Shown here: positions 1-14,116 of the stretch, piece after piece
Layout: the number at the start of each line of letters is the position of its first letter
Numbering within the stretch: the stretch's first letter is position 1
Source: Kiritimatiellota bacterium
GTDB taxonomy: Bacteria > Verrucomicrobiota > Kiritimatiellia > JAAZAB01
Assembly: GCA_008636095.1 (NCBI GenBank)
Contig: VSJD01000135.1
Span: 1-15,637, forward strand
Length of the DNA: 15,637 bases
Direction: 5' to 3'
The notes under the pieces: model-generated
Databases searched by the model: none
What the model saw: only the letters and a program-made list of their open reading frames with translations
What the model was told of the DNA's origin: nothing
Position numbers and translations under genes: made by a program

Positions 1-198
1 GTGGCGCGGGGCCAGGATGACGCGGCCGAGATCGAGCGGCGTCTGAAAAATGCCGGGGACGAAATGGCGGGTGCTTCGCGCTTTCAGTACCGGATTGTTA
101 ACGATTGCCTGGAGGACGCAGTGGCGCGCCTGCGGGATGTTGTGCTGAAAGAGAAGCAAACATCCAACGCTCAACGTCGAACGCCCAACGTCCAATGA
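1..198 (+). CDS. gmk: Guanylate kinase, C-terminal part (5' end outside window)
   Basis: The frame is open from base 1, and the encoded 65 residues match the C-terminal end of guanylate kinase, which phosphorylates GMP to GDP in the cytoplasm. The recognisable pieces are RGQDDAAEIERRL, the family's lid-to-C-terminal helix region (usually RG.D....I..RL), followed by a YRIVNDCLEDAV block (usually Y.vvNddle.Av). The GTG at base 1 is therefore an internal codon, not a start. The last ~14 residues (from about KQTSNAQ) have no counterpart in the family; they are encoded by a 7-nt tandem repeat (160-194) that runs into the stop codon. The gene lies 42 bp upstream of coaC on the same strand, a common bacterial arrangement (gmk, sometimes rpoZ, then coaBC). 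No rpoZ lies between them here. The assignment is secure; the unusual tail is directly visible. Confidence 0.9.
   Translation: MARGQDDAAEIERRLKNAGDEMAGASRFQYRIVNDCLEDAVARLRDVVLKEKQTSNAQRRTPNVQ
160..194 (+). repeat. Heptanucleotide tandem array (five units, consensus ACGYCCA)
   Basis: Five consecutive 7-nt units read acatcca, acgctca, acgtcga, acgccca and acgtcca. The array lies inside the last codons of gmk and supplies its non-conserved C-terminal tail. Two other unrelated arrays in the window (7407-7437 and 11970-11990) also have a 7-nt period. Confidence 0.85.
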
Positions 199-240: not shown

Positions 241-798
241 ATGATGGCTGATAACAAACATATTGTTCTGGGAGTGACCGGGTCAATTGCCGCCTACAAG
301 GCCGCCGAGCTGGCACGCCTGATGATTAAAAAAAACTGGGAGGTGTCGGTCGTCATGACCCAGGCGGCCACCCGGTTTGTCGGGGAACTGACCTTCCGCG
401 CCCTGACCCGCCGTCCCGTGGTGCTTGACATGTTCCAGGAAACCGAAACCTGGCGGCCGACGCATATCTCGCTGGCCGACTGGGCCAATGTGCTTGTGAT
501 TGCGCCCTGCACGGCCAACGTTATGGCCAAATTGGCGCACGGCCTGGCTGACGATGCCCTGAGTGCGACGGCGTTGGCCTGTCAGGCTCCGCTGGTGGTG
601 GCGCCGGCCATGAATGAAAAAATGTGGGATAATCCGGCCACCCAGGAAAATGTGCGCGTCCTGAAGTCGCGCGGCGCCGTGGTCGTGGATGTGGAACAGG
701 GTGAGTTGGCCTGTGGCTGTGAAGGCCGGGGCCGGCTGGCCGCGTTGGACACGATTATGGCGGCTGTGGAAGAGTGCCTGAAATCACGGCGGCGATAA
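241..798 (+). CDS. coaC: Phosphopantothenoylcysteine decarboxylase (CoaC), stand-alone
   Basis: This flavoprotein removes CO2 from 4'-phosphopantothenoyl-L-cysteine to give 4'-phosphopantetheine in CoA biosynthesis. At 185 aa it equals the N-terminal half of the usual CoaBC (Dfp) fusion. An N-terminal flavin-binding GVTGSIAAYKAAEL motif (residues 11-24) is followed by the active-site His75 in PTHISLADW, Asn125 in the PAMN motif, and Cys158 in GELACGCEGRGR. As I recall the E. coli Dfp numbering, all three catalytic positions coincide exactly. Tandem ATGs lie at 241 and 244; a GAGG at about 232-236 suits the second slightly better. The protein ends EECLKSRRR and stop, with no CoaB domain attached. 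The CoaB half lies 6.9 kb downstream, and a second copy of this gene's 3' end is at 7282-7374. It is predicted to be a complete, functional decarboxylase. Confidence 0.95.
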   Translation: MMADNKHIVLGVTGSIAAYKAAELARLMIKKNWEVSVVMTQAATRFVGELTFRALTRRPVVLDMFQETETWRPTHISLADWANVLVIAPCTANVMAKLAHGLADDALSATALACQAPLVVAPAMNEKMWDNPATQENVRVLKSRGAVVVDVEQGELACGCEGRGRLAALDTIMAAVEECLKSRRR

Positions 799-848
799 AA
801 ATGGGGCATGACATCTCTAAGGCGCTGTTAGCGAATAAACTATACAAC

Positions 849-991
849 AGAGCCTCTTGCAAAACTCCTACGGACGCGACGGAGCGCGTCCCTCCATTGC
901 CAAAACAGACCGATTTGGCTTTATTTTTGGAGGGCCATCCGGCGCATGCCGGATCGTAGCCGTCTTTTCCGTGAGTTTTGCAAGCGGCTCT
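849..991. repeat. 143-bp MITE-like element with terminal inverted repeats and nested hairpins
   Basis: The outer arms (849-867 and 973-991) are 19-bp inverted repeats with a single mismatch, beginning agagcctcttgcaaaactc. Inside are further hairpins: ggacgcg/cgcgtcc at about 871-890; ccctcca pairing with tggaggg (about 890-936) around a gccaaa/tttggc stem; and atccggc/gccggat at about 938-955. The whole can fold as a branched, cloverleaf-like structure. It has no coding capacity, so it would be a non-autonomous repeat or a structured RNA. No clear target-site duplication is seen. Confidence 0.75.
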
Positions 992-1056
992 ACATGCATC
1001 TTGTAAATGTTGTTTATTAACGCTACCTAAGTCCATGCACAGGAATTTTAATCCGG

Positions 1057-1177
1057 GTAGCCGCGCCGGTAACGGCGTGGACTCGTCTGGCAAGGCCGCC
1101 GAGCGAGATTCTTCCGGCCTGCCCACCATAGCCCCCGGGGCGACGGCAGGCGGCCACGGCGTCACCGCCGCGGCTAC
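1057..1177. repeat. Imperfect 23-bp inverted repeat element
   Basis: Left arm 1057-1079 (starting gtagccgcgcc) and right arm 1155-1177 (ending gccgcggctac) are inverted repeats with about four mismatches. A nested ggccgcc/ggcggcc pair and a gactc/gagtc pair lie around them. Its GC content is much higher than that of the AraC gene that begins 32 bp later. It is probably a second dispersed structured repeat. Confidence 0.6.
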
Positions 1178-1209
1178 AAGAGTCCGCCTGTTAGGGCGAT
1201 AAGTCCACC

Positions 1210-2091
1210 ATGAAACAGAACGAAAATAATTTTAAAACAACATTTTGGCCGTTGCGTGATGTTTTACCTTTTGTCAGGTATGCCGGCGCCGCCGAATTTC
1301 ATCCCGGCGGTAAATATCAAAACTCTCATATTGCGTTGGAAATATGTTATGTCGCTTCCGGCGCCGGGAGTTTCAAACAGGGCAAAAACGCTCGATTTGA
1401 TCTTGGGAAAGGAGATGTCTTTCTAATCAAGCCAAAGCGACGATTTGTTTTTCAGGCCGATTCCAAAGAAGGGCTGTCATCATATTTCTTGGGCATTGAT
1501 TTCGGAAAGCTCAGGAAAAAGGGCTCTTCTTTGTCGGCCGAAGAAGCCCAGCTGTTAACCTTTGAACGGATTTACCTTCAACATAACCAGCAGTCATTCA
1601 AGGACGGAATGAACGTTGGTTTGCTTTCAAAGAAACTTGTCGAGGAAATCAGCGAAAAGAGAACGGATTATCTTGTCCTGGCAAAAGGATATTGTCTGGA
1701 AATTTTATCACTTCTGGCGAGATCCATTCAGCGCGAAAAAATTGAGCAGGACAACAAACCATCCGGTAAAAATTACAAGGCGGTTGAAAAGACGCTGAAA
1801 TTTATCGAGGAAAACCATCAGCGGAAATTGTCTTTGGGCGATTTTGCGAAAAATGTTTTTTTAAGTCCGTACCATTTCAGCCGTATTTTCAAGACCTACA
1901 CGTCTCATTCCCCCATTAAATACTTAAATATGCACAGAATAGAAAAGGCCAAGGAGTTGTTGGCCGATGAAAGCCTGACTTTCGCCGATATCGCCGCCAG
2001 GGTCGGCTTCAACGATCCTTTCTATTTCAGCGCCATATTCAAGCGCATGGAAGGCTTTTCTCCGCTTCAATACAAGAAGCTTCTTCGATAA
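1210..2091 (+). CDS. AraC-family transcriptional regulator
   Basis: A 293-aa cytoplasmic DNA-binding regulator. Residues ~15-110 form an AraC-type cupin sensor domain; the segment around LEICYVASGAGSF and FDLGKGDVFLIKP is typical of the ligand-binding beta-barrel. Residues ~190-293 carry the two helix-turn-helix motifs of the AraC/XylS domain, including LSLGDFAKNVFLSPYHFSRI and, near the end, the signature IAARVGFNDPFYFSAIFKR. The protein ends 2-3 residues past the usual PLQYKK terminus, so it is full length. The DNA is AT-rich (one 60-base line counted at 40% G+C) compared with coaC and coaB. It lies upstream of, and on the same strand as, the DUF4861/UroD/Ldh2 genes, which it probably controls in response to a sugar-like or other small ligand. 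No good Shine-Dalgarno is seen before the ATG. Confidence 0.93.
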   Translation: MKQNENNFKTTFWPLRDVLPFVRYAGAAEFHPGGKYQNSHIALEICYVASGAGSFKQGKNARFDLGKGDVFLIKPKRRFVFQADSKEGLSSYFLGIDFGKLRKKGSSLSAEEAQLLTFERIYLQHNQQSFKDGMNVGLLSKKLVEEISEKRTDYLVLAKGYCLEILSLLARSIQREKIEQDNKPSGKNYKAVEKTLKFIEENHQRKLSLGDFAKNVFLSPYHFSRIFKTYTSHSPIKYLNMHRIEKAKELLADESLTFADIAARVGFNDPFYFSAIFKRMEGFSPLQYKKLLR

Positions 2092-2142
2092 AGACCCGCG
2101 CCAAAACAACCTTAAAGTCAATCCGGTCTGGTTATCATGCTT

Positions 2143-2170
2143 GCAATATAGAATTTCATTTCTATATTGC
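2143..2170. terminator. Perfect 11-bp hairpin downstream of AraC gene (terminator or operator)
   Basis: gcaatatagaa (2143-2153) and ttctatattgc (2160-2170) are perfect inverted repeats around a 6-nt loop, 51 bp after the AraC stop codon. The stem is AT-rich and no T-tract follows, which weakens a classical terminator reading. A binding site for a dimeric regulator is the alternative. Confidence 0.4.
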
Positions 2171-2335
2171 GCGCAAATTAAAGGAATAATCAGCCATTAG
2201 TCCATGCCGCTATCTTGAGTCTGTCTGACTGAGTCTACAAAGAAAGGCCGACATACTGACTTTTGCAACTTGCTCGACAGAATCAGTTTTAACCTCCTAA
2301 TCCCCCGGAACACAGACCGCAAGAATACACATGCG

Positions 2336-2370
2336 TTGAGCAAGATATCTCATGGCGTTTTTATGCTCAA
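2336..2370. promoter_or_regulatory. Hyphenated inverted repeat upstream of DUF4861 gene, candidate operator
   Basis: ttgagca (2336-2342) and tgctcaa (2364-2370) are perfect inverted repeats whose starts are 28 bp apart, ending 18 bp before the ATG at 2389. The position suits a regulator or mRNA hairpin controlling the DUF4861 gene; the short arms make chance possible. Confidence 0.3.
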
Positions 2371-2388
2371 TCAAATACATTTAAGTGC

Positions 2389-3492
2389 ATGAAGACATCC
2401 GTACTGCTTGTGTCCGTGACGTTAAAACTGACCAATCCTCTGTCATTCGACCGAGCGGCTGAACCGGTTGTTATCTCCCTGGATAATTTACCTGAGCTTC
2501 GCGCGGCGCTCACGCCCGCTCGTTCGGCGGTTGTCGCGCATGACGGTGATAAAATCCTTCCGGCCCAGGCGGACGATTTGGATGGCGATGGTATTTTTGA
2601 CGAACTGGTGTTTTTCGCCGATCTTTCCGCGCGCGAAACCCGGACCATAACCCTGATTGCCAACCCCAAACTTCCGCCGTCCACGGCGGAAAAGAAAACG
2701 GCGACAAACCCGAATGGCCCCGGCGGTTTTGGCTGGGAATCGAACCTTATCGCCTATCGAACATATTGCGGCAGAATTGACATTTTCGGAAAAAAGAAAG
2801 CCGCTCTTATATTGCATACCCCATTGGACCATTATCATCGGGAGGCGGATTGGGGAATGGACATTTTCTACATCGGCCCCTCCGTTGGTCTCGGCGGATT
2901 GCTGTTATGGGAGGGCAAGCGGGCCATTCCGGTTGTGAATGAAGCGGGTCAACCCGAGAAAGTGAAAATTACCAATCGCGTGATCGTGGATGGACCGTTG
3001 CGATCCGTCGTTGAGCTGAAGCTAAAGCTTCAAACCCCACAAGGCCAATTTGACCTGACACGGCGGCTGGCGATTTACGCGGACAACCCATACATGGAGG
3101 AACAGCTGACGATCACCGGCGGCAAGGGAAATGAAATCATCTACAGTCCCGGCCTTATTAAAATAGATAAAGGACAATTCGGGCAAGGGCAGGACGGGCT
3201 GACTTACATCTGGAATTGGGGCAACCAGAACCATCCCGATACAGCCGGCGCCGAAGAGATCAGCCTGGCATTGCTTGCGCCGAGCGCGAATGTCATCGGG
3301 ACCGACGCGACGGAGTTCGATCATATTTTACGTTGCAGAACGCAAAGCGGCGTCCCACAGCGGCAATACCTGGTTGCGGGCTGGTCAAAGGGCCTGCCGC
3401 AATACAAAACCGCCGGGAGCTGGAGCGCCTACATTGCCGCCCTCGCGCAACGCCTCGCCGCGCCGGTGCAATGGACGCGAGAGGAGAAATAA
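2389..3492 (+). CDS. DUF4861-like protein
   Basis: A 367-aa protein that I match, from memory of motifs, to the DUF4861 family, which often occurs in polysaccharide-degradation loci and has no settled general activity. The best signature is DDLDGDGIFDELVFFADL (residues ~62-79), an acidic calcium-loop-like motif characteristic of the family, followed by ARETRTITL. Later blocks (Y..Y.GRIDIFGKKK, LDHYHREADWGMDIFYIGPS, IVDGPLRSVVELKLK) look like beta-strand-rich core. The N-terminus has only a weak hydrophobic stretch (VLLVSVTL) and then goes straight into the domain, so a normal signal peptide is doubtful. The reading frame is open upstream to a stop at 2290 but offers no ATG, GTG or TTG, which fixes the start at 2389; the ribosome-binding site is weak. 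The UroD-like gene begins 25 bp after its stop, suggesting one transcript. Confidence 0.7.
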   Translation: MKTSVLLVSVTLKLTNPLSFDRAAEPVVISLDNLPELRAALTPARSAVVAHDGDKILPAQADDLDGDGIFDELVFFADLSARETRTITLIANPKLPPSTAEKKTATNPNGPGGFGWESNLIAYRTYCGRIDIFGKKKAALILHTPLDHYHREADWGMDIFYIGPSVGLGGLLLWEGKRAIPVVNEAGQPEKVKITNRVIVDGPLRSVVELKLKLQTPQGQFDLTRRLAIYADNPYMEEQLTITGGKGNEIIYSPGLIKIDKGQFGQGQDGLTYIWNWGNQNHPDTAGAEEISLALLAPSANVIGTDATEFDHILRCRTQSGVPQRQYLVAGWSKGLPQYKTAGSWSAYIAALAQRLAAPVQWTREEK

Positions 3493-3517
3493 AAAAATTT
3501 ATGAAAAGGAAAATCAA

Positions 3518-4600
3518 ATGAGTTACGCCACCGCCAAAGCCGCATTAAACCTGGGAATGACCGATAGAATCCCCTATTGGGGATGTCTCCCCTTCCAGAC
3601 GGATTTTCTTGGAAAATGTTCTGGAATGGATCCCTGCGCCGATCCGGTGCAAACGTCGTTGAAAGTCATAGAAAAATGCGGAATGTCGGCGGTTGGCGGC
3701 ATCTTTACCGATATCCCCAGGGAAGCGGAGCTACGGGAATCGGAGGCCGAATATGACAAGGAAAACAAAATAGGATATACAAGAAACTTGGGATGGGGAA
3801 AATCCACATGGCGTGAACATACCACCTTTAAGACAATAGAACAGGTGCTGGAATTCGACCCGACCGGATATGATACGAAAAACATTGATGATATAATCGC
3901 CGAATGCAAAAAGAGCATGGAGGACGCCGGGAACATGCAGAAAATTGTCGGGGAACGGGCGTGGTTAATCCCGCCGGCGGGATTCTATAATACGCTTTTT
4001 ATGTGGCCCATAGAATGTTTCGGCTGGGAGATGTTTTTAATGACCGCCGCGCAGGAACCCGAAAAATTCGGAAGACTTCTTGAGAAGTTCGCCCAAATTT
4101 CCCTGAAATATATTTCAGCCTGGGCCTCCTGCGCCAATATTGAATTATTCCAGAGTCACGACGACCTGGCTTCCACGAAGGGACCCATGTTAAACCCTGA
4201 ATGGTACAAGAAATATATTTTCCCCTTATACCCGCAAATATGGAAGCCCCTCAAGGACAAGGGAATAAAAATACTTTTCAGGGGCGACGGCAACATGGAC
4301 GAATTCACCGATGACCTCGTGAAATGCGGTGTTGACGGGTTCCATTTCCGGCGGGAGACGAACCTGAAACGTTTGGCGGAAAAATATGGGAAAGACAAGA
4401 TTATCGTGGGAAACATAAGCACACAGGTGCTCACCTTCAAGGGCAGGAAAGAGATAGAAGACGAAGTCAAAAGATGCGTCTTGGAAGCCGGCAACTGTCC
4501 CGGATATTTTCTTAACGTGGCCGGCGAGATACCCTATAATGTGCCGACGGAAAACATCGAATTTCTTTTTGAAGCGATAAAAAAATATGGAAGAAGATGA
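3518..4600 (+). CDS. Uroporphyrinogen decarboxylase-fold protein (MtaA/CmuA-like superfamily), function unknown
   Basis: A 360-aa protein of the UroD superfamily, which contains heme-pathway decarboxylases and corrinoid-linked methyltransferases such as MtaA and CmuA. Family blocks are visible: GMTDRIPYWG near the N-terminus, SHDDLAS with His214-Asp215-Asp216, NPEWYKKYIFPLYPQIW, GVDGFHF, IIVGNISTQVL, and a C-terminal NIEFLFEAIKKYG. It is too divergent to be HemE. At the position where related proteins usually have HSDGN this one has FRGDGN (Arg255), and the C-terminal glycine/cysteine block expected of zinc-binding MtaA-type enzymes reads NVAGEIPYNVP with no cysteine. Zinc-dependent thiol methylation is therefore doubtful. 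I chose ATG 3518, preceded by AAGGA at suitable spacing; the open frame back to 3275 overlaps the DUF4861 gene and resembles nothing. Confidence 0.85.
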   Translation: MSYATAKAALNLGMTDRIPYWGCLPFQTDFLGKCSGMDPCADPVQTSLKVIEKCGMSAVGGIFTDIPREAELRESEAEYDKENKIGYTRNLGWGKSTWREHTTFKTIEQVLEFDPTGYDTKNIDDIIAECKKSMEDAGNMQKIVGERAWLIPPAGFYNTLFMWPIECFGWEMFLMTAAQEPEKFGRLLEKFAQISLKYISAWASCANIELFQSHDDLASTKGPMLNPEWYKKYIFPLYPQIWKPLKDKGIKILFRGDGNMDEFTDDLVKCGVDGFHFRRETNLKRLAEKYGKDKIIVGNISTQVLTFKGRKEIEDEVKRCVLEAGNCPGYFLNVAGEIPYNVPTENIEFLFEAIKKYGRR

Positions 4601-4635
4601 TCATAGATAAGGTTCACAAAAAGGGACAACAATTC

Positions 4636-4713
4636 TGTCATCCTGAGCATAGCGAAGGATCTCGGGCATATTTATCGATACGGCTGAGATTTCTCGCTAC
4701 GCTCGGAATGACA
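4636..4713. repeat. REP-like inverted repeat
   Basis: Arms at 4636-4663 (starting tgtcatcctgagcat) and 4686-4713 (ending gctcggaatgaca) are 28-nt imperfect inverted repeats. The wording (gtcat.ctgagc.agcga..gatctc) belongs to a palindrome type dispersed in many environmental bacterial genomes. It sits between the UroD-like and Ldh2 genes and could stabilise mRNA or attenuate transcription between them. Confidence 0.75.
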
Positions 4714-4729
4714 ATGTTGACCATGCAAT

Positions 4730-4743
4730 ATTGAAATTTCAAT
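4730..4743. promoter_or_regulatory. Perfect 14-bp palindrome next to the Ldh2 ribosome-binding site
   Basis: attgaaa/tttcaat is perfectly palindromic and ends just before AAGGAGG (4746-4752), the Shine-Dalgarno of the Ldh2 gene. An 11-bp direct repeat, catgcaatatt, occurs at 4722-4732 and again across the start codon at 4758-4768. The arrangement could be a regulator site or could mask the ribosome-binding site; there is no direct proof. Confidence 0.3.
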
Positions 4744-4759
4744 TCAAGGAGGCGCAAAC

Positions 4760-5788
4760 ATGCAATATTTCAATTATGACAAATTATTTGATTTTGGAGT
4801 GCGATTGTTAACCGGCAAGGGGGTTCCCAAGTCGAAAGCCGAATATATCTCCGGGATTGTGGTTGATACCGAAGCTATCGGCATAACAACCCATGGCGTG
4901 GCCGCTTTTCAGTTTTTCGACAATGAAGTGGGGGTGAATATTGACCCGAAAGCGGCCCCGAAAATAATCAAGGAAAAGGACGCCACCGCTCTTATTGACG
5001 GAAACAGCGCCTTCGGCCAGTTGTCAATGAAGCTGGCGAAGGAGTTGGCCGTTAAAAAGGCGAAGAAAAGCGGTATCGCCATGATCGGCGTCAGGAACGG
5101 GTTCTGGCTCGGCGCATTGGCGACTCATTTGATTTCCCTGGTCGAACAGGGTTTCTTCGCCCAGCTTTGGGCCCAGAATTCCACCTGCAAGGATTGCGCG
5201 CCGTACGGGGGAATTGACCCAAGATTCTCAACCAATCCGGTCGCATTGGCGTTTCCGACAAATAAAGACCCGATGATCGCGGATATTTCCACCGCCGCCA
5301 TGTCAATGAGCAAGGTCAACCAATTGATAAGGGATGGCCGGAAAGCGGATGACAAATTATTTCTGGACAAGGACGGCAATCCCACCGATGATCCCAACGC
5401 ATTCCCAAAGGGTGGAACCATCCTGTTTTTCGGCGGGGACAAGCAGGGCTACAAAGGCTACGCCTTTTCATTATGGTGCGAGGCCCTCACTGCCATGGCG
5501 GGCGGCGACTGCAACAATCCCGGCGCAAAACCACGGCAATCGTTTAATTTGCTGGTAATTGATCCGGAGGCGTTTGCCGGGATGGATTATTACCAAAAAG
5601 AGATGAAACGTTTTATTGAACATGTGAAATCAAGCCGTGTAAGAAAGGGGTTTTCCGGGATAAGAATCCCGGGGGATAAAACGATAAGAAAATTAAACGA
5701 GGCGAAAAGCAAGGGTATTCCCCTCGGAGAATTCATGATCGAGAAACTAACCGCCGTGGCCGTAAAAAACAACTTGTCTTTTCCCTAA
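4760..5788 (+). CDS. Malate/L-lactate/ureidoglycolate dehydrogenase family (Ldh2) oxidoreductase
   Basis: A 342-aa protein of the Ldh_2 family of NAD(P)-dependent 2-hydroxyacid dehydrogenases (AllD, ComC, MdhM types), which lack a Rossmann fold. It has the usual length and strong landmarks: DTEAIGITTHGV with the conserved His45, ALIDGNSAFGQL, NPVALAFPT, MIADISTAAMS, GYKGYAFSLWCEALTAMAGG, and FSGIRIPG near the C-terminus. The substrate pocket diverges. The Arg and Tyr usually found shortly after THG are Ala49 and Phe53, and the HFG catalytic motif (normally NSNHFGAA) reads NGFWLGAL, putting Trp116 where the catalytic His belongs. It may reduce an unusual substrate or be repurposed. An excellent AAGGAGG lies 7 bp before the ATG. 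Its stop codon TAA (5786-5788) lies inside the first 127-bp repeat. Confidence 0.87.
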   Translation: MQYFNYDKLFDFGVRLLTGKGVPKSKAEYISGIVVDTEAIGITTHGVAAFQFFDNEVGVNIDPKAAPKIIKEKDATALIDGNSAFGQLSMKLAKELAVKKAKKSGIAMIGVRNGFWLGALATHLISLVEQGFFAQLWAQNSTCKDCAPYGGIDPRFSTNPVALAFPTNKDPMIADISTAAMSMSKVNQLIRDGRKADDKLFLDKDGNPTDDPNAFPKGGTILFFGGDKQGYKGYAFSLWCEALTAMAGGDCNNPGAKPRQSFNLLVIDPEAFAGMDYYQKEMKRFIEHVKSSRVRKGFSGIRIPGDKTIRKLNEAKSKGIPLGEFMIEKLTAVAVKNNLSFP

Positions 5789-5910
5789 CCTGACTTATTC
5801 ATGGAAACTTCGTTTTCATTCATAGTCACTTGCAAATCATGCAATTATGTCAATTGCATGATTTGCAAGTTTCGGCGCGGCGCGTTGCGCCTTGCTCAAG
5901 GTTAGCCCTG
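5784..5910 (+). repeat. 127-bp direct repeat, copy A (multi-hairpin, cassette-like)
   Basis: This copy is 97% identical to copy B at 6825-6951 (123 of 127 bases, no gaps) and in the same orientation. Its ends, ctaacct and aggttag, are inverted repeats. Inside are an imperfect hairpin (tgactt.../...agtca, with atggaaac facing gttttcat), a perfect 19-bp hairpin (acttgcaaatcatgcaatt and its complement, 5-nt loop, about 5828-5870), and ggcgc-gtt-gcgcc. The element begins within the Ldh2 stop codon and ends 12 bp before the MBL start codon. Confidence 0.9.
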
Positions 5911-5922
5911 TAAAGAAATTAA

Positions 5923-6810
5923 ATGAACAATAACTGCGGGGGTGTTATAACTTTAAAGGCTGAAAAAATTTCAGGCGGTATTTTCATGCTCACCGGCTGG
6001 CCTGGCGGCAATGTCGGCGTTGCCGTTGGAGATGACGGCATCGTTCTTGTTGATGATCAAGACGCGGCATTGGCCGGGGAGATTCAGTCCGCGCTCCGGA
6101 TAATCTCCGAAAAGCCTGTTCGTTTTGTCATTAACACCCATCATCACAGCGACCATACGGGTGGTAACGCTGTCTTCCGTGATCATGCGCTCATTATTGC
6201 TCAAACCAGCGTGCGCAAACGTCTTGCTTCCGGTGGTATTTGCGGCAACGGCACGTCAACGGAAGCAGTGTGGCCGCCGGCAAATATCAAGGCTTTACCC
6301 GACTGCACTTTTGACCATGCCATTACCCTGCATCTCAACGGCGAAGATATCCGCGTTCTGCACTTTGCCAATATGCATACTGATGGCGATGCGGTGGTTT
6401 TCTTTTCAAAGTCCAAGGTCGTCCACATGGGCGATGTCTTCGTAACCGGGATAAACGGCTGTCATGGATTCCCATTTGTTGATATTGAGGGGGGCGGCAG
6501 TGTGCGCGGCATGATAGCCGGGATTGAGCAACTTTTGCCGCAGATTCCGAACGACGCCATAATAATCCCTGGCCATGGGCAGATTTCAACTGTACAGGAC
6601 GTAAAGAACTATCTCCGGATGCTCAAAAAAACATTTGCTACGGTCGAAAAAGCAAAGACTAATGGCACGACTCTTAAACAATTGCAACAGGAAAAGATTC
6701 TTGATCCATGGAGGGAGTGGAACGGATATTACGACGCCGACAAATACCTGGAGACCATCTATAACGACCTGAACAGCGCAAAACCGAAAGATTTTATTCG
6801 TCTCGAATAG
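5923..6810 (+). CDS. MBL-fold metallo-hydrolase
   Basis: A 295-aa metallo-beta-lactamase-fold hydrolase with a complete dinuclear metal site. H73-x-H75-x-D77-H78 lies in THHHSDHTGG, the third-strand His152 in NMHTDGD, the bridging Asp171 in HMGDVF, and His218 in IPGHG. The general build (N-terminal beta strands with GWPGGNVGVAVGDDGIVLVD, then the metal site) resembles the broad MBL group that includes SoxH-like and flavoprotein-like hydrolases; the substrate is unknown. There is no evident signal peptide. The ATG at 5923 has only a weak AAAG upstream. The gene sits between two 127-bp direct repeats, its start 12 bp after copy A and its stop 14 bp before copy B, so gene plus one repeat form a unit of about 1,041 bp. 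This is the architecture of a mobile or duplicated cassette. Confidence 0.9.
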   Translation: MNNNCGGVITLKAEKISGGIFMLTGWPGGNVGVAVGDDGIVLVDDQDAALAGEIQSALRIISEKPVRFVINTHHHSDHTGGNAVFRDHALIIAQTSVRKRLASGGICGNGTSTEAVWPPANIKALPDCTFDHAITLHLNGEDIRVLHFANMHTDGDAVVFFSKSKVVHMGDVFVTGINGCHGFPFVDIEGGGSVRGMIAGIEQLLPQIPNDAIIIPGHGQISTVQDVKNYLRMLKKTFATVEKAKTNGTTLKQLQQEKILDPWREWNGYYDADKYLETIYNDLNSAKPKDFIRLE

Positions 6811-6824
6811 AACATCAAAGGAAA

Positions 6825-6951
6825 CCTAACCTGACTTATTCATGAAAACTTCGTTTTCATTCATAGTCACTTACAAATCATGCAATTATGTCAATTGCAT
6901 AATTTGCAAGTTTCGACGCGGCGCGTTGCGCCTTGCTCAAGGTTAGCCCTG
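6825..6951 (+). repeat. 127-bp direct repeat, copy B
   Basis: Second copy of the element at 5784-5910, same length. The four differences are all A in place of G on the + strand: within the first hairpin loop side, at both arms of the central palindrome, and before the GC-rich hairpin. Two of the changes break the otherwise perfect central palindrome. Its left edge reads ACCTAAC and its right edge GTTAGCC. It merges directly into the next structured region (6943-7030). Confidence 0.9.
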
Positions 6952-7030
6952 AGCGAAGGCCTGTCTTCAGGCCGTAGTCGAAGCCCACAGGGTGATCTAT
7001 TCATGGCTTTGCATGAATAGATCAGGCTAA
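6943..7030. repeat. Branched inverted-repeat element abutting copy B
   Basis: The outer pair ttagccctga (6943-6952) and tcaggctaa (7022-7030) encloses two hairpins: ggcctg-tctt-caggcc (6958-6973) and a perfect 13-bp stem tgatctattcatg/catgaatagatca with a 6-nt loop (6993-7024). The ctattcatg stem resembles cttattcatg in the 127-bp repeats, so the two elements may share ancestry. Confidence 0.65.
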
Positions 7031-7107
7031 AGTGAGGAAATCAGATATGCCTGCGGTTAACCTATAACGAGGCTTGTCCGCTGCCAGCGATATTCCTCGA
7101 TTAAGCT

Positions 7108-7143
7108 CCCGCCGTCGTCCGGCATTAGCCGGACTATGGCGGG
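7108..7143. repeat. REP-like hairpin
   Basis: cccgccgtcgtccggc and gccggactatggcggg are 16-bp arms with a central 3-bp mismatch around an atta loop; the inner seven pairs (gtccggc/gccggac) are perfect. No T-run follows, so a terminator is not favoured. Confidence 0.65.
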
Positions 7144-7166
7144 CAGGCGGAATGACCGTTCTTGCG

Positions 7167-7196
7167 TGTCATGTCGAGCGGAAGTCGAGACATCTC
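7167..7196. repeat. Dispersed-repeat motif (tgtcatgtcgagcgg type)
   Basis: The stretch begins tgtcatgtcgagcgg and ends gtcgagacatctc. It is partly self-complementary and has the wording of a REP-like motif that I recall as frequent in environmental bacterial genomes. It is a single half here, without an evident partner arm. Confidence 0.45.
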
Positions 7197-7281
7197 TGCT
7201 TGGGTGGCACAACTTTGGCTGTCCCCCGTAACTTAGGGATTACAATTCACAGTGGAAAATGGTTGCCGATGCGTGCCTGCT

Positions 7282-7374
7282 GTGGCACAGTATTCCTGCG
7301 GCTGTGAAGGCCGGGGGCGGCTGGCCTCCCTGGATACGATCCTGAAGGCCGTGGAGAAGTGTGTGAAATCATAA
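7282..7374 (+). pseudogene. coaC: Diverged duplicate of the coaC 3' end
   Basis: This frame encodes SCGCEGRGRLASLDTILKAV, then EKCVKS and a stop, against ACGCEGRGRLAALDTIMAAV, EECLKS in coaC. From 7294 to 7371 the two copies agree at 62 of 78 bases without gaps (79%), and most changes are at third codon positions or conservative. Homology fades just left of 7290; VAQ at 7282-7290 may still match VEQ of coaC. No start codon, flavin site or catalytic His is present, so it cannot be a working enzyme. It lies 284 bp upstream of coaB, where the end of an intact coaC would be expected. The pattern points to an old recombination or insertion at the coaC 3' end, not recent decay. Confidence 0.85.
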
Positions 7375-7406
7375 AACCATTGCATTAGCATCCCACAGGA
7401 TGCTCA

Positions 7407-7533
7407 GGCTGTAGGCTGAGGGCTGTAGACTGTAGGTAAAATCGCGGAAAAAGCGCAAACTTTAGTTCCGGTTTTTTGCCAATGTATTTTATTGATTCCG
7501 ACCTACAGCCTACGGCCTAAACGGCTACAGTCT
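7407..7533. repeat. Inverted pair of GGCTGTA heptamer arrays
   Basis: The left array (7407-7437) reads ggctgta, ggctgag, ggctgta, gactgta, ggt. The right array (7501-7533) is the approximate inverse complement, containing acctacagcctac and ggctacagtc. They bracket about 63 bp of AT-rich DNA and could form a long imperfect stem. Confidence 0.75.
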
Positions 7534-7534
7534 C

Positions 7535-7632
7535 GGCGTCCCTATGGGACGCCAGTGAAACCATTGGACCATTCTACATCAACCCCGCGAAACGCGGGGC
7601 AAGCCATCAACTTTATCCCGCGTCGCGCGGGA
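7535..7632. repeat. Three compact GC-rich hairpins upstream of coaB
   Basis: Perfect stems occur at 7535-7553 (ggcgtccc-tat-gggacgcc), 7583-7599 (ccccgcg-aaa-cgcgggg) and 7616-7632 (tcccgcg-tcg-cgcggga). None is followed by a clear T-run. They lie in the untranslated lead to coaB, which has no recognisable Shine-Dalgarno. Confidence 0.65.
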
Positions 7633-7658
7633 CATTTGCCATAAATCATTTCCTCGTC

Positions 7659-8333
7659 ATGCGTATTCTGATTACAGCCGGACCGACCCGTGAGGCGATT
7701 GACCCGGTGCGTTTTCTCAGCAACCGGTCCAGCGGCAAGATGGGGTATGCCCTGGCGCGCGTAGCCGTGCGGCGCGGGCATGTCGTCACGTTGATTTCCG
7801 GTCCGGTTGCGCTTCGGCCGCCGCCAAAGGTTTCCTTTGTGGCGGTTACGACGGCGGACGAGATGCTGGCGGCAGTTAAACGCTATCTATCCCAATGCGA
7901 TGCGCTCATCATGGCCGCCGCCGTGGCCGACTGGCGGCCACGGCGGGTCAGTGCGCAAAAAATTAAAAAAGCAACCGGATACCGGTTGTTGTGCCTGGAA
8001 CCGACGCCGGATATTCTCAAACAATTGCGGAGCAAAAAGGGTCGGCGCGTATTTATCGGATTCGCGGCTGAAACGGAACGACTGCTGACGGGAGCTCGAC
8101 GCAAATTGGCGGAAAAGGGGCTGGATCTGGTCGTGGCCAATGACGTGAGCCGTCGCGATGCCGGTTTTGAAGTGGACACCAATCGGGTAACGTTGCTGGA
8201 GGCCGGCGGCGGGGTGCGAGTCTTGCCCCTCATGACCAAGATGAAGGTGGCGGCGCGAATCCTGGACTGGCTGGAGGCGCCTGCCCGCAGAGGCTGCGCC
8301 TCAGGCGCTGCAGGCGGGCGGGTCGGCGCGTAG
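7659..8333 (+). CDS. coaB: Phosphopantothenate-cysteine ligase (CoaB), stand-alone
   Basis: This enzyme joins 4'-phosphopantothenate and cysteine (CTP-dependent in most bacteria) in the CoA pathway, the step before CoaC. The 224-aa protein starts directly at the domain boundary: ITAGPTREAIDPVRFLSNRS then SGKMG is the hallmark nucleotide/dimer region, followed by MAAAVADWRP, KIKK (the conserved lysine segment), GFAAET, and ANDVSRRDAGFEVDTNRV. It corresponds to the C-terminal half of the usual CoaBC fusion. There is no good ribosome-binding site before ATG 7659. The final ~17 residues (after ILDWLEA) are Ala/Gly/Arg-rich and encoded by repetitive GC-rich DNA with a gaggc/gcctc hairpin, so they look like a repeat-derived extension. 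It converges on the E1 beta gene with only 16 bp between stop codons. Confidence 0.94.
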   Translation: MRILITAGPTREAIDPVRFLSNRSSGKMGYALARVAVRRGHVVTLISGPVALRPPPKVSFVAVTTADEMLAAVKRYLSQCDALIMAAAVADWRPRRVSAQKIKKATGYRLLCLEPTPDILKQLRSKKGRRVFIGFAAETERLLTGARRKLAEKGLDLVVANDVSRRDAGFEVDTNRVTLLEAGGGVRVLPLMTKMKVAARILDWLEAPARRGCASGAAGGRVGA

Positions 8334-8349
8334 CATTTAATGCATTTTT

Positions 8350-9324
8350 CTATCGATTGATAATCTTGCGGATGACAGCCGTCAGGGACGCCGCGCTCGG
8401 CAGGCAGGCGTCTTCCAATGGTGGACTGAAAGGCATGGGAACGTGTGCGCTACCCACGACCAGTGGCTCGGCGTCAAGCAGGTCAAACCCCTGCGCTACA
8501 ACCCGCCGCACGATCTCGGCGCCGAATCCGCAGGATGCCGGGGCGTCATGCACGACCACCAGGTGTCCGGTTTTTGAAACGCTGTTCAGAATCGTTTCCA
8601 AATCCAGCGGCGCCAGACTGCGCGGATCAATTACTTCTACCGATACCGTACCTTCCAGTGCCTGGGCTGCGGATAGCGCTAACTTCCGGGCATAGCCGAT
8701 TGCCACAACGGTGATGTCGCGGCCTTCGCGGGCCACTTCGGCGACACCCAGTGGGGTCGTCCATTCCCCGTCCGGAACAGATTCCGTTTCGTAATATAAC
8801 TGCCGGTTTTCGATGTAGAGCACAGGGCAATCGTCGCGGATGGCTGATTTGAGCAGGCCCTTTGCGTCGTAGCTGGTCGCCGGCATGACGACCTTGAATC
8901 CGGGCGTGTGCAGGAACCAGGCCTCCAGACTTTGGGAATGCTGGGCCGCCTCGCGGGTACGGGCGCCGGTCTGAGCGCGGACTGTCACCGGAACCTGTAA
9001 TTGTCCGCCGGACATGCCGGCGATCTTGGCCATTTGATTGACGAGCGGATCCATGGCTACGCCGACAAAATCGAAGTACATGAATTCGACAACCGGACGC
9101 AGTCCCGCCATGGCGGCGCCTGCCGCCAGGCCGGTAAACGCCGACTCCGCAATGGGCGTGCCCCGCACTCTTCGCGCGCCAAAACGCTCGACAAGGCCCT
9201 GGGTGGCCTTGAACACGCCGCCGTTTTGATCCACGTCTTCGCCGATGACGAATACCGATGCGTCCCTTGCCATTTCCTCGTGGAGCGCTTCGTTAATAGC
9301 CTGAATGTATTGCAGCATCCTCAT
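8350..9324 (-). CDS. TPP-dependent 2-oxoacid/acetoin dehydrogenase E1 component, beta subunit
   Basis: A 324-aa beta subunit of a two-subunit E1 enzyme, which with the alpha subunit decarboxylates a 2-oxo acid (pyruvate or branched-chain) or cleaves acetoin using thiamine diphosphate. Visible features are an N-terminal INEALHEEMARD, GEDVDQNGGVFKAT, the RVRGTPIAESAFTGLAAGAA block, EFMYFDFVGVAMDPLVNQ, AQHSQSLEAWFLHTPGFKVV, which carries the conserved His region, and a C-terminal VVVHDAPASCGFGAEI transketolase-C domain. Its ATG overlaps the alpha-subunit stop codon as ATGA (9321-9324), implying translational coupling. No E2 or E3 gene follows; the gene is the last of the minus-strand series. Sequence alone does not separate pyruvate from acetoin specificity. 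Confidence 0.9.
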   Translation of the reverse strand: MRMLQYIQAINEALHEEMARDASVFVIGEDVDQNGGVFKATQGLVERFGARRVRGTPIAESAFTGLAAGAAMAGLRPVVEFMYFDFVGVAMDPLVNQMAKIAGMSGGQLQVPVTVRAQTGARTREAAQHSQSLEAWFLHTPGFKVVMPATSYDAKGLLKSAIRDDCPVLYIENRQLYYETESVPDGEWTTPLGVAEVAREGRDITVVAIGYARKLALSAAQALEGTVSVEVIDPRSLAPLDLETILNSVSKTGHLVVVHDAPASCGFGAEIVRRVVAQGFDLLDAEPLVVGSAHVPMPFSPPLEDACLPSAASLTAVIRKIINR

Positions 9325-10268
9325 ATGTTTGCATGCTCCCGCAGAAAAGCGGCGGGATCCGGATACGGACTGCCGCGCGCAAAAGTCACGGCGGTCTCCA
9401 GTTGCGCTTCCACGTCATGCCACGCCGCGCTGATTACCGCGTCCGAAAGTCCGCCCCCTCGTCGCAGATGCTCCAGGGGATCGCGATCCGGCCGGCCCCA
9501 GCGCTCCAGTTCTTCCTTCGGACGCTTATCGGCGATGATGCCACAGTGCGGCTCCACGCGATAGGTTTTGCATTCCAGCAATGTCGGACCATCCCCGGCG
9601 CGGGCGCGCTCCACAGCGGCCGTTGCCGCGCGATACACCGCCAGGCAATCGTTGCCGTCCACGACGATCCCGGGAATACCGTAACCGGCGGCACGCGGTG
9701 CAATGTCCGCCGTGGGCACGGCGGCGACGAACGGTGTCGTGGCCGCATACTGGTTGTTTTCGCAGACCGCGAGATAGGGAAGCTTCCAGAGCGCGGCCAG
9801 GTTCAGTGCCTCATGAAACGTGCCCTGCTGGGCAGCGCCGTCGCCAAAAAACGCCACGGCGATGCCGTCGCGACCTCGATATTGGGCCGCGAACGCCGCG
9901 CCGAGCGCCAGCGTCAGACCGCCGCCGACAATGCCGTTGCCGCCCATAAAGCCGACCCGCGATTCAAACATGTGCATCGACCCGCCGCAACCGCGCGAAC
10001 AGCCCGTCTGCCGGCCCATGAGTTCGGCCACCATTTCCGGGAGATGGCCGCCTTTGGCGATCAGATGTCCGTGGCCGCGATGCGTGCTGAACACGGCATC
10101 GTCCAGCCTTAAAGCCGAGCAAACGCCGACCGCCACGGCTTCCTGTCCGATTGAAAGATGAATGGCGCCGGCAATCTCGCCGGCCTGGTAGAGCTGTTTG
10201 ACCTTTTCTTCAAACAGCCGGATGGTCAGCATGGACCGATACATTTGGATCACAAGGTCTGGTTCCAT
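9321..10268 (-). CDS. TPP-dependent 2-oxoacid/acetoin dehydrogenase E1 component, alpha subunit
   Basis: A 315-aa alpha subunit that binds thiamine diphosphate. The ThDP motif runs from Gly142-Asp-Gly (FFGDGAAQQGTFHEALNLAA) to Asn171-Asn172 (CENNQYAATTP). Upstream are IHLSIGQEAVAVG, FSTHRGHGHLIAKG and GCGGSMHMF, all typical of PdhA/AcoA-type subunits; LLECKTYRVEPH lies near the C-terminus. The short length and the ENNQYA wording recall the acetoin-type (AcoA) group, but this is only a lean. The start codon has a poor ribosome-binding site. The MttB gene stops 185 bp upstream, and a REP-like palindrome lies in that gap, so the E1 pair may have its own promoter. Confidence 0.9.
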   Translation of the reverse strand: MEPDLVIQMYRSMLTIRLFEEKVKQLYQAGEIAGAIHLSIGQEAVAVGVCSALRLDDAVFSTHRGHGHLIAKGGHLPEMVAELMGRQTGCSRGCGGSMHMFESRVGFMGGNGIVGGGLTLALGAAFAAQYRGRDGIAVAFFGDGAAQQGTFHEALNLAALWKLPYLAVCENNQYAATTPFVAAVPTADIAPRAAGYGIPGIVVDGNDCLAVYRAATAAVERARAGDGPTLLECKTYRVEPHCGIIADKRPKEELERWGRPDRDPLEHLRRGGGLSDAVISAAWHDVEAQLETAVTFARGSPYPDPAAFLREHANI

Positions 10269-10341
10269 AGTCTTTATGCTATCAATTTACCCAAGGTTTC
10301 GGGCACTCCAAAAATATTTTCGCATAGCCGGCCTGAGCGCT

Positions 10342-10409
10342 TGTCATTCCCATGAAAATGGGAATCCAGAAAAAGTCAGTCTGGATTCCCGATCAAGTCG
10401 GGAATGACA
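10342..10409. repeat. REP-like inverted repeat with two nested hairpins
   Basis: Left arm 10342-10369 (starting tgtcattcccatg, ending ggaatccag) and right arm 10381-10409 (starting ctggattcccgatc, ending ggaatgaca) are imperfect inverted repeats; each arm also folds on itself (cccat/atggg and cccga/tcggg). The motif is a widely dispersed type. It lies between the MttB and E1 alpha genes. Confidence 0.8.
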
Positions 10410-10453
10410 GAGTGACTAAAAATTTCAAATATGTTTGGATAGTCTTCCGGCCA

Positions 10454-11935
10454 TCAATTCTTGTGGTTTCCCAGTTGGCTTTTTGCCCGTTCCAGAACTT
10501 GGCGGGCAAGGACTACCTGCGCCTCGTGTCCTGTCGGTTTGCGATACTGCGCCAGCAGGGCCTTGACCTTGGTGCGCGCTCTTTGCATGCTTTCGACTTC
10601 GGCCGCCGCGCCCAAGCCCGATCGGCTAAATAGCTCGGGCATCCAGGACTCCTGCCGACAATACTCCGCCGTGTGCGGATGACTCAGAAAATCACCCTGC
10701 AAACCAAAGCCGATTTCCATAATGGCGTCCAGCCCCAATTGTGCTTTTGTTAATGGCCGGTGTTCCAGCAACCGCAACCCCTCCGTGAATTCATAATCCA
10801 AAAGGAGCTGGGCCGGACTAATCGTGAGGCCGGCATCAATATGGCCAACGCCAATATCCGGATGATAACCGGTGAAGGCGGCCACAATCATGGCAAAATA
10901 GGCCTTTTCCAACGTGGAGACCATACCCGGTGTCTTGGTGGGTGGCCATTCCCCCGGTCCCGGTGTCAGCCGGACATCCGTCCACCGTTGGAAAAAGTCC
11001 CAGATCGCCAGGCGGCGCATCGTCGCGTCGAAGGCCGTGAAACTCACTCCACCCGTGTGCATATCCATGGTGCCGGAGATCGCCATCCCGAGCAACGGGA
11101 TTTTACGGGACTGCATCAGGCGCGCGGCCAAAAAGAGCGCCAAGAACTCGGCGGCGACGATGACGACCGTGCCGCCCACCGTGACCGGCATATTCACACC
11201 GGCAACCGGCATGGCCGCCAGCTTTGCCGGATAGCGGCCGGTTTTAAGCATATACACATACCGTTCCGCCGCTACCTTGTCCAGTTTAAGCGGCGAATTG
11301 GGACAGATATTGGCCATCCAATGCCAGTATGGATCCTTAATGCCGAAAATGTCCTCGATCTCTTGAAGATATTCAATTTGCCGGATATCATGCACATAGA
11401 CACCGCGCGGATTGTGCGAATATTCCAGCAGGGTTAATGCGGCTTCCAATGGCTCAATGGGCGCCGGCGTATCGCCGGCGAGGTTCAACACATGTCCCAC
11501 ACCCTGCTTCGGGTGGAGCATGTCGCCCAGTTTGATCAGGGTGATGAAATCAGCATGATTGCCCATGCGCCGCGCCTGCGTCTCGTCATCATAAAAGAAA
11601 GTGCTCAAATTATGGAACATATAGACTGAAGGCGGCGCTTTAAATTCCGGCAAGTCGCCATAGGGCTGATAGCCGGAATAAATATTTAACCGGTTTTCCG
11701 CTTTCAATTGGTCATACCATCCCGATTTATCCTCCAGTCGGAGTGACTCCACAAAGGCCTGCATCATTTTGCGCGGGAAAAGCGCGGTGCGGGTGGTCAT
11801 ATCCACCTTGGCGCCCGCTTCGCCGTAAGCTCGCAATATCTCGTCATTATCGCAGTGAAACCCAAGCTTCGCCAACACATCAAGCACACCGTCGCCAATC
11901 ACCTCAACTTCGCTGTCGTTAAATATGCGCCACAT
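10454..11935 (-). CDS. MttB-superfamily methyltransferase (non-pyrrolysine trimethylamine methyltransferase homologue)
   Basis: A 493-aa protein of the MttB family. Members transfer a methyl group from a methylated amine, such as trimethylamine, glycine betaine, proline betaine or carnitine, to a cognate corrinoid protein. The N-terminus (DGVLDVLAKLGFHCDNDEIL, GAKVDMTTRTALFPRKMM) matches the family's opening, and the C-terminus (LSHPHTAEYCRQESWMPELF, then a KVKALLAQYRKP helix) matches its end. The length is that of full MttB. There is no in-frame TAG, so pyrrolysine is absent and the protein belongs to the larger non-Pyl group (MtgB, MtpB, MtcB and others of unknown substrate). A strong GGAGGT lies 4 bp before the ATG. 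No MttC-type corrinoid protein or RamA-like activator is in the window. Upstream genes on the same strand encode an aminotransferase, an amidohydrolase and an oxidoreductase. Confidence 0.88.
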   Translation of the reverse strand: MWRIFNDSEVEVIGDGVLDVLAKLGFHCDNDEILRAYGEAGAKVDMTTRTALFPRKMMQAFVESLRLEDKSGWYDQLKAENRLNIYSGYQPYGDLPEFKAPPSVYMFHNLSTFFYDDETQARRMGNHADFITLIKLGDMLHPKQGVGHVLNLAGDTPAPIEPLEAALTLLEYSHNPRGVYVHDIRQIEYLQEIEDIFGIKDPYWHWMANICPNSPLKLDKVAAERYVYMLKTGRYPAKLAAMPVAGVNMPVTVGGTVVIVAAEFLALFLAARLMQSRKIPLLGMAISGTMDMHTGGVSFTAFDATMRRLAIWDFFQRWTDVRLTPGPGEWPPTKTPGMVSTLEKAYFAMIVAAFTGYHPDIGVGHIDAGLTISPAQLLLDYEFTEGLRLLEHRPLTKAQLGLDAIMEIGFGLQGDFLSHPHTAEYCRQESWMPELFSRSGLGAAAEVESMQRARTKVKALLAQYRKPTGHEAQVVLARQVLERAKSQLGNHKN

Positions 11936-11969
11936 AATTACCTCCGGTTAGTTTTTAGCTCGATTCATT

Positions 11970-11990
11970 AACCATCAACCATTAACCATT
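11970..11990. repeat. Heptanucleotide tandem array (AACCATY, three units)
   Basis: aaccatc, aaccatt and aaccatt follow one another without gaps in the 97-bp spacer between the Gfo/Idh gene and the MttB gene, 25 bp upstream of the MttB Shine-Dalgarno. The sequence differs from the other two heptamer arrays in the window but the period is the same. Confidence 0.7.
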
Positions 11991-12032
11991 ATCCGCGCGT
12001 CCTTACGTGCGGATTTGGGGCCCGGGCGCCGG

Positions 12033-13031
12033 TCAGCAGGTCAAGCGCCTTCCCCGGCGGGCGGATTCCGCCGCGCGCCAACCCACGCTGAGCGTCTGCA
12101 TATCGTTCTGCAACCGGGCACGATGATCCAATCGGCCCCGGATGGCGGCAATAAAATCACGGCACGAGCCGGCCACGCCCCAATCGTCAATATACACTTC
12201 GTTGGCCTTGGTCTCGCCGCCATTCCAGATGACCTGAGACTTGGCGGGGCCATGCGACACGACGGTCAATGATCCTGCGGCGCCGTTAAGCCACAATCCC
12301 CGCGGCGAACCCCGGCCGGCCGCGCTGAGATACCACTGAATACAACTGGCGGCGCCGCCGGCATGCTCCAAATGGAGCGTGCCGCCGATCAGTGATTTAT
12401 AGCCCGGCCGGAGATGGTCAGGCCGGCTGTCATCGTGCGCCCTCACCGCCGTCACTGCGCCCAGCAGATGGCGGTAATATTCAATGTGATGATAATGCAG
12501 AGCCGCAAAAACCGGTCCTGTAAACCGTGGATTCATATACCAACACCCGGCGACCGCCTTGTCATGGAAAGCCACCCGCGAGGCGGCGCTGCACAGCGCG
12601 CCCAGTTGCCGACGATGGCGCATGAGATAGCGAAACATGGCCTCATGGATGATCGTATTGCCCACCATGAGCACCCGGCCGTTGCGCACTGCCGCCGCCT
12701 GCAAGACACGCGCCTCAGCCGGGGATAGACACAGCGGGTACTCAACCAGCACATGTCTGCCTGCCCGCAGGGCTTGCAACGCAAACGCCGCATGCAGATG
12801 ATTGGGCAGGCAAATGACCGCCGCTTCAGCGGCTGCGAGCAGGTCGTCGTAATCCGCGCAGGCTTGGGCGCGCGAGCGCGCACAGCACGCGCGCACCTTT
12901 TCAATATGGCGCGCATACACCGCGCTGACCTTCACGCCGGCCATGCGGTTAAAAAGGCTGATCCTTTGCGTCGCCATCCCGCCCGAACCGGCGATGCCGA
13001 TTGTAACGCGTCGTAAAGTCATTGAATTCAT
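12033..13031 (-). CDS. Gfo/Idh/MocA-family oxidoreductase with an EYP motif
   Basis: A 332-aa NAD(P)-dependent oxidoreductase of the Gfo/Idh/MocA family, which usually oxidises or reduces sugars, inositols or related compounds. The Rossmann motif GIAGSGGMA (residues 12-20) and AAVICLPNHLHAAFALQALR, then HVLVE, are clear, with a C-terminal substrate domain from about residue 120. The family's catalytic E-K-P motif reads E97-Y98-P99, replacing the lysine; biliverdin reductase also has EYP, as I recall, so this is not necessarily inactive. The substrate-domain signature usually including D.g.H..D appears as LHYHHIEYYRHLLG. I took ATG 13031, 2 bp after the amidohydrolase stop codon, with AGGA about 11 bp upstream; ATG 13022 is the alternative. 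The open frame further upstream overlaps the amidohydrolase and is not homologous. The near-abutting genes indicate one operon. Confidence 0.85.
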   Translation of the reverse strand: MNSMTLRRVTIGIAGSGGMATQRISLFNRMAGVKVSAVYARHIEKVRACCARSRAQACADYDDLLAAAEAAVICLPNHLHAAFALQALRAGRHVLVEYPLCLSPAEARVLQAAAVRNGRVLMVGNTIIHEAMFRYLMRHRRQLGALCSAASRVAFHDKAVAGCWYMNPRFTGPVFAALHYHHIEYYRHLLGAVTAVRAHDDSRPDHLRPGYKSLIGGTLHLEHAGGAASCIQWYLSAAGRGSPRGLWLNGAAGSLTVVSHGPAKSQVIWNGGETKANEVYIDDWGVAGSCRDFIAAIRGRLDHRARLQNDMQTLSVGWRAAESARRGRRLTC

Positions 13032-13033
13032 AG

Positions 13034-14089: not shown

Positions 14090-14116
14090 GTTCAGTTCCT
14101 TTGGCGATGAACGCTT

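Follow-up and report, generated by a model that had tools for sequence, protein, structure and literature searches.

A second coaC 3' end beside a gene block that separates coaC from coaB in an uncultured Kiritimatiellota bacterium

The gmk-coaC-coaB locus

The DNA analysed here (the window, 15,637 nucleotides) is the whole contig piece G000:C233 of a Kiritimatiellota metagenome-assembled genome (MAG), which comprises 3,806,325 bases in 357 contigs and is 87% complete. It carries coaC and coaB, the genes for two coenzyme A (CoA) enzymes, with a block of other genes between them and a partial second coaC 3' end, the coaC remnant, ahead of coaB. The gene order is gmk, coaC, repeats, the genes for an AraC regulator, a DUF4861 protein, a URO-D protein and an Ldh2-type dehydrogenase, a 127-bp repeat, the gene for a metallo-beta-lactamase (MBL) fold hydrolase, a second 127-bp repeat, further repeats, the coaC remnant and coaB (Table 1); the genes downstream of coaB lie on the opposite strand. 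Both coaC and coaB are intact, single-domain genes with their own start and stop codons, each matching one half of the fused CoaBC model TIGR00521 with a score slightly below the cut-off, and both CoA enzymes should still be produced. A preliminary description of the window had reported intact coaC and coaB halves about 6.9 kb apart, a duplicated coaC 3' end before coaB (79% over 78 bp) and an AT-richer middle. All three observations were reproduced, by the matches to PF02441 and PF04127 with a gap of 6.86 kb between the coaC end and the coaB start, by the alignment given below, and by a GC content of 0.483 at 1210-6810 as against 0.604 at 1-798 and 0.588 at 7282-8333.

Table 1. Features of the window, with positions, strand and supporting matches
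Feature	Position	Strand	Remarks
gmk (guanylate kinase), 3' part	1..198	+	TIGR03263 partial match; gene start on contig piece C232
coaC, long-tail 3' end type (...CLKSRRR-stop)	241..798	+	PF02441 E 1e-35; N-terminal half of TIGR00521
Putative replacement (imported-type) coaC 3' end, T1	710..798	+
Left insert edge, dispersed intergenic repeats	799..1209		Inverted-repeat unit 849-991; ATGCACAGGAATTTTAATCC motif 1035-1054; hairpin unit 1057-1177
AraC-family regulator	1210..2091	+	PF12833 E 2.8e-21
DUF4861 protein (BT_3233-like)	2389..3492	+	PF16153 E 4.1e-59; NF058564 below cut-off
URO-D superfamily protein (methyltransferase-like)	3518..4600	+	PF01208 E 7.5e-28; nearest other protein 71% (large protein set)
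Ldh2/malate-type dehydrogenase	4760..5788	+	PF02615 E 2.2e-75
127-bp repeat element, copy 1	5784..5910		Ends CTAACC.../...GGTTAG
Metallo-beta-lactamase-fold hydrolase (SoxH-related)	5923..6810	+	PF00753 E 4.1e-12; TIGR04559 below cut-off
Right insert edge, dispersed intergenic repeats	6811..7281		Matches extend to about 7253
127-bp repeat element, copy 2	6825..6951		97% to copy 1
Putative displaced native-type coaC 3' end, T2 (short tail, ...CVKS-stop)	7282..7374	+	Certain from 7295
coaB	7659..8333	+	PF04127 E 2.7e-71; C-terminal half of TIGR00521
Genes right of coaB: E1 dehydrogenase alpha/beta, MttB-like methyltransferase, Gfo/Idh oxidoreductase; amidohydrolase and class III aminotransferase by eye	8350..15499	-

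Positions 710-786 of coaC and 7295-7371 of the remnant are 81% identical over 77 bp. A search of the genome with window positions 600-900 returned two places only, the query itself and 7295-7371 (E 1.7e-13), and the likeness is therefore not due to chance. Homology is certain from 7295, while the stretch 7282-7294 (GTGGCACAG...) is arguable only and too short to trust. The remnant is in frame throughout and free of frameshifts, ends in a stop codon of its own (7372-7374), and is probably inert.

The five genes between the two coaC ends belong to catabolic and regulatory families, from which we conclude that the cluster probably serves the catabolism of a sugar- or methyl-derived substrate. In scans with Pfam and NCBIfam, none of these five was recognized as an integrase, a transposase or any other mobility gene, small frames within the repeats lying outside the scan. 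Whole relatives were searched with the Ldh2 and MBL-fold proteins; the AraC, DUF4861 and URO-D proteins were compared with the loci already fetched, and URO-D also with a large protein set. The Ldh2 protein had no match in the congeneric genomes G001-G003 and merely a 28% match in G004, its nearest relative within the family being a 49% match in G008, and the MBL-fold protein had no match in G001-G005. As judged by these two proteins, the inserted DNA is without close counterpart in the relatives with an empty site.

These empty sites were recognized by comparison with the genus relatives G001-G004 (higher numbers denote further genomes). The distance from coaC to coaB is 6.86 kb in the window, 6.0 kb in G001, about 0.3 kb in G003 and about 0.1 kb in G002 and G004, the last two having an uninterrupted gmk-coaC-coaB locus; one small gene lies inside the G003 gap. 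The contents of the G001 gap differ from those of the window gap, and neither a coaC nor a coaB remnant was found in it. In G005 the two genes are on different contigs.

Separation of the two genes is not in itself unusual here. PMC7794376 describes the fusion of CoaB and CoaC as the general case in most prokaryotes, and to that extent the statement of the preliminary description that most bacteria fuse them holds, but not as a local baseline. Counted by hand in 58 genomes of the class, the genes were fused in 22 and separate in 34, and in two (G048 and G053) one or both were not found; fused here means one long frame for both genes, with slightly unequal lengths of the two frames in G029. Among the 34 unfused genomes the gap is at most 0.54 kb in 13 and more than 2 kb on one contig in five (the window, G001, G014, G041 and G054), and the genes are on different contigs in 16. 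Separate coaB and coaC genes are thus normal in the class, and the split, which had been presented as odd, is common. That coaC and coaB frequently stand unfused and at a distance from each other in this class is of consequence for genome annotation based on their fusion or on gene order.

Two coaC endings and the repeats around them

The complete coaC has a long ending (T1, ...KSRR...), the remnant a short one (T2, ...KS-stop). Both types occur in other coaC proteins: among the best 42 of 120 listed, from at least 7,998 found and with the window's own protein first, 12 have the long SRR-type tail, 19 the short ...KS/KA-stop tail and 11 neither. In the coaC of G003, read from its bases, a stop codon truncates an ending of the long type. 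Over the 77 bp, T2 is nearest to G002 (63/77), which ranked first in 1579 of 2000 resamplings (in blocks of three bases, not in codon register). The identities of T1 are 64/77 with G003, 63/77 with G004, 62/77 with T2 and 56/77 with G002. The preliminary description had suggested that uninterrupted gmk-coaC-coaB loci be sought in relatives; they are present in G002 and G004, and the coaC end of G002 is indeed nearer to T2 than to T1.

The likeness of T2 to the relatives extends past its stop codon. Aligned with six further bases, to 7380, the remnant is 83.7% identical to G002 and 75.6% to G004 over 86 bp, and the sequence AACCAT behind the stop is identical in T2, G002 and G004 and missing behind T1. 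Because of the long ending of T1 as against the short ending of T2, together with this native-type flank of T2, the locus looks like two alleles brought together and not like a decayed tandem copy. The differences between T1 and T2 are spread over codon positions 1, 2 and 3 as 6, 1 and 8, and those between T2 and G002 as 3, 2 and 9. Though the counts are small, such a spread fits working alleles better than a decaying copy, and it suggests that T1 and T2 gained most of their differences under selection, while T2 was still part of a whole gene.

Third-position identity along coaC falls towards the 3' end, and we considered whether each lineage had replaced its own coaC end. A comparison of codons 1-90 with codons 141-182 gave a strong result for window-G002 (P 0.00014) and G002-G004 (P 0.00026) only, the other four pairs giving P 0.022-0.078 (window-G004 0.051); control pairs from another genus were too distant for judgement. 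The idea was dropped as a claim.

Both edges of the insert consist largely of dispersed intergenic repeats. The left edge (799-1209) has at least 31 matches in the window's genome, itself included (40 of 71 candidates scored), and others in G001-G004 and G006; the query 6811-7290 has at least 38, itself included (40 of 80 candidates scored), and others in G001-G004. As repeats typical of the genus occupy much of both edges, they point to a congener as donor, and the block would have come from the same genus or resided there long. Copies of the 127-bp repeat flank the MBL gene, copy 1 containing a perfect inner palindrome; this repeat has 27 matches in its own genome and 14 in five others (20 genomes searched), and resembles a non-autonomous mobile element.

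The motif ATGCAYRGGAATWTYAATCC (window 1035-1054) is often followed by varied hairpin-like repeats and occurs in dispersed copies across the genus as well as in G006. Allowing at most two mismatches, it occurs at 18 places in the window's genome and in seven of nine genomes searched; its reversed control gave one match in one genome and none in the other eight. It lies behind the window coaC and adjoins a coaB remnant in G002, and was considered as the end of an element; as a dispersed repeat, it was rejected in this role. A literature search on the dispersed repeats found no paper.

Origin of the block

From these comparisons we favour, with moderate confidence, the reading that congener DNA entered the locus by one-sided recombination, the product being that of homology-facilitated illegitimate recombination. 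DNA from another species of the genus, carrying a long-tail coaC 3' end and a small catabolic cluster, would have recombined with a resident gmk-coaC-coaB locus. The left side would have been anchored by homology inside coaC, the sole homologous stretch there, and because the crossover lay within the gene, coaC would have remained whole, now with the donor tail. On the right, the incoming DNA would have met the resident coaC at about 7282-7294, at the edge of the remnant, in a join that lacked long homology, and the resident last 25-30 codons together with coaB would have been displaced about 6.5 kb downstream. Illegitimate joins of this kind typically have short microhomology. In this account the intact genes, the empty sites, the two tail types and the native-type flank behind the displaced copy only are observed, whereas we infer that one event took place, which way it went, that a congener was the donor and how the DNA was joined. 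An earlier suggestion, that a foreign block entered where coaC ends, supplied a substitute for that end and displaced the old one, is supported by the empty sites, the lack of close Ldh2 and MBL matches in four congeners, the two types of ending and the flank found behind T2 only. Its comparison with integrative elements as such was not supported, as no integrase or other mobility gene is among the five genes, and the interpretation given in the preliminary description is, overall, partly supported.

Several results weigh against one-sided recombination with a congener. No donor locus was found, and mapping by informative-site patterns along coaC gave no clean block or crossover point. The flank kept by T2 amounts to six bases, and the remaining gap before coaB is unlike that of the relatives. 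First place in the resampling of T1 was divided between G003 (1113 of 2000) and G004 (730), and the identity of T1 to T2 almost equals that of T1 to G003 and G004. A tree of the 77 bp with seven rows has no supported fork and so does not establish which sequences are closest to T1 and T2; no donor species is claimed. Among the 42 coaC proteins compared, 31 tails are nearer to T1, seven to T2 and four tie, and none has the exact T2 tail. The codon-position counts are small: for the 15 differences between T1 and T2, P is 0.019 for at most one at the second position and 0.088 for at least eight at the third. The rpoB gene is 94.6% identical to that of G004, and neither tail is as near to G004 as this predicts. 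Finally, the stretches fetched from G001-G004 show none of the window's six genes right of coaB next to their own coaB, which leaves the flank to the right of this gene without conserved context.

Four other explanations were weighed. An origin in which coaC-coaB was duplicated in tandem, the first coaB and the greater part of the second coaC were lost afterwards and the middle genes were gained in the meantime, possibly with gene conversion between alleles, appears unlikely. Partial copies do arise near the gene pair in relatives, such as the coaB 3' remnant of G002 and the coaB 5' copy of G041 described below. However, T2 has no frameshift, and only one of its 15 differences from T1 falls at the second codon position, a spread that would be unusual were the differences evenly distributed; the two tails are of different types, and more steps are required. 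Duplication followed by loss, which had been offered earlier as an alternative, thus fits less well in its simple form, and the version with mixed alleles shares the grade just given.

We likewise give little credence to a site-specific integrative element, for which a recombinase would have carried out the crossover at a short core of identical sequence close to the 3' end of coaC, the element carrying a replacement end and its integrase being lost or supplied in trans. Full-length coaC is restored at one side only, as such an element would leave it, and 17 identical bases (715-731 and 7300-7316) lie near the left edge of the remnant, in a position like that of an att core; but these bases encode conserved tail residues, so that their identity is expected and proves nothing. 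The five genes carry no recombinase or other mobility function, and the other interruptions around coaC and coaB (G001, G002, G014 and G041) differ in contents and places.

It is improbable that the right side is the newcomer, a piece consisting of coaC tail and coaB from a G002-like congener that arrived beside an already separated coaC. The separation could be older, given the 6.0-kb gap in G001 and the different contigs in G005, and T2 is nearest to G002. Against this, coaC and coaB are close together in three of four congeners (G002, G003 and G004), their order and orientation are kept in the window, and a second coaB would have been needed meanwhile.

The state of the assembly bears on the last explanation. 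Exactly 10,000 bases were counted in five of 20 sampled contigs of the window's genome, and the C232 match likewise ends at base 10,000 (pieces C105, C220, C195, C55, C150 and C232). The gmk gene is split across pieces, C232:9563-10000 corresponding to residues 1-156 and window 1-195 to residues 157-221 of the G002 gmk. It seems that the assembly was cut into 10-kb pieces ahead of binning, and, with gmk continuing from C232, that the left end of the window is artificial. A longest contig of 20,705 bases is listed alike for coaC, the URO-D gene and Ldh2, a length equal neither to that of the window piece nor to the sum of this piece and one 10-kb piece; a second assembly therefore probably joins coaC to the cluster, an argument from equal lengths that extends to the left junction and the cluster, the right junction lying outside it. 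A misassembled or chimeric contig is thus very improbable: the MAG is fragmented and incomplete, with several pieces of exactly 10,000 bases and dispersed repeats at both junctions, but gmk runs on from the end of C232 into base 1 of the window, and the shared 20,705-base length speaks for the join of coaC to the cluster.

Gene-end fragments in relatives and comparison with known systems

Among 13 loci tested in 12 genomes, fragments of gene ends at this gene pair were found in G002 and G041, making three genomes when that of the window is counted. In G002 (L033), the complete coaB is followed, after about 2.1 kb that include a long frame on the opposite strand, by a second, partial coaB 3' end at 6753-7112 (360 bp, 93.3%, a single frameshift), whose left edge adjoins the dispersed ATGCATGGGAATTTCAATCC motif. 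The differences of this partial copy are spread over codon positions 1, 2 and 3 as 9, 10 and 14, in contrast to the coaC remnant. In G041 (L184), the coaB 5' end occurs a second time at 9583-9685 (103 bp, 97%), 0.8 kb upstream of the complete gene. The genes between this copy and coaB are small and, by eye, DUF433-like and DUF5615-like, resembling a toxin-antitoxin pair.

Because fragments from this gene pair occur in G002 and G041 too, a wider reading stays alive, in which recombination is permanently concentrated around coaC and coaB in the class, clusters of foreign genes enter repeatedly at gene ends, and alternative coaC endings that circulate in the genus serve as interchangeable anchors at this hotspot. 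We hold this to be doubtful; if true, essential genes would be kept whole while their surroundings act as a landing pad. A scan for local direct repeats in 60 stretches (1,020,176 bases of G000, G003 and G004) returned a few short candidates, along with numerous repeats located within large proteins; when nine of the short candidates were examined for their copy number, two or more proved to be dispersed repeats. As the scan covered the plus strand and repeats within one stretch only, the rarity of gene-end remnants cannot be derived from it. In a literature search for coaC or coaB with Kiritimatiellae, the class name appeared in none of the matches listed.

Some integrative elements, such as e14 in icd, insert at the 3' end of a protein-coding gene and bring a replacement end with them. 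The window resembles them in that a whole gene is restored with what looks like a foreign end and the old end lies on the far side; it differs in that an integrase or att site is not demonstrated.

Homology-facilitated illegitimate recombination is described for transformable bacteria and for conjugation (PMC3240628). The likeness consists in a homologous anchor on one side, a non-homologous join on the other and a gain of foreign DNA. That process is known from experiments, whereas here we infer it from a natural locus, with the anchor and the remnant in a housekeeping gene. According to PMC5361080, it is rare compared with ordinary homologous recombination, and its authors propose it for displaced immunity genes of the Vibrio cholerae type VI secretion system (T6SS) and for orphan Rhs 3' regions. 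These orphans share with the window a constant 5' part, a new downstream part inserted behind it and an old part retained downstream. They belong to toxin and immunity loci, whereas coaC is metabolic and its new and old ends share one job. The event is of a known kind, an ordinary exchange of DNA between related bacteria, and offers a readable footprint of gene gain, probably through one-sided recombination, in an uncultured group and in a core metabolic gene instead of a toxin locus.

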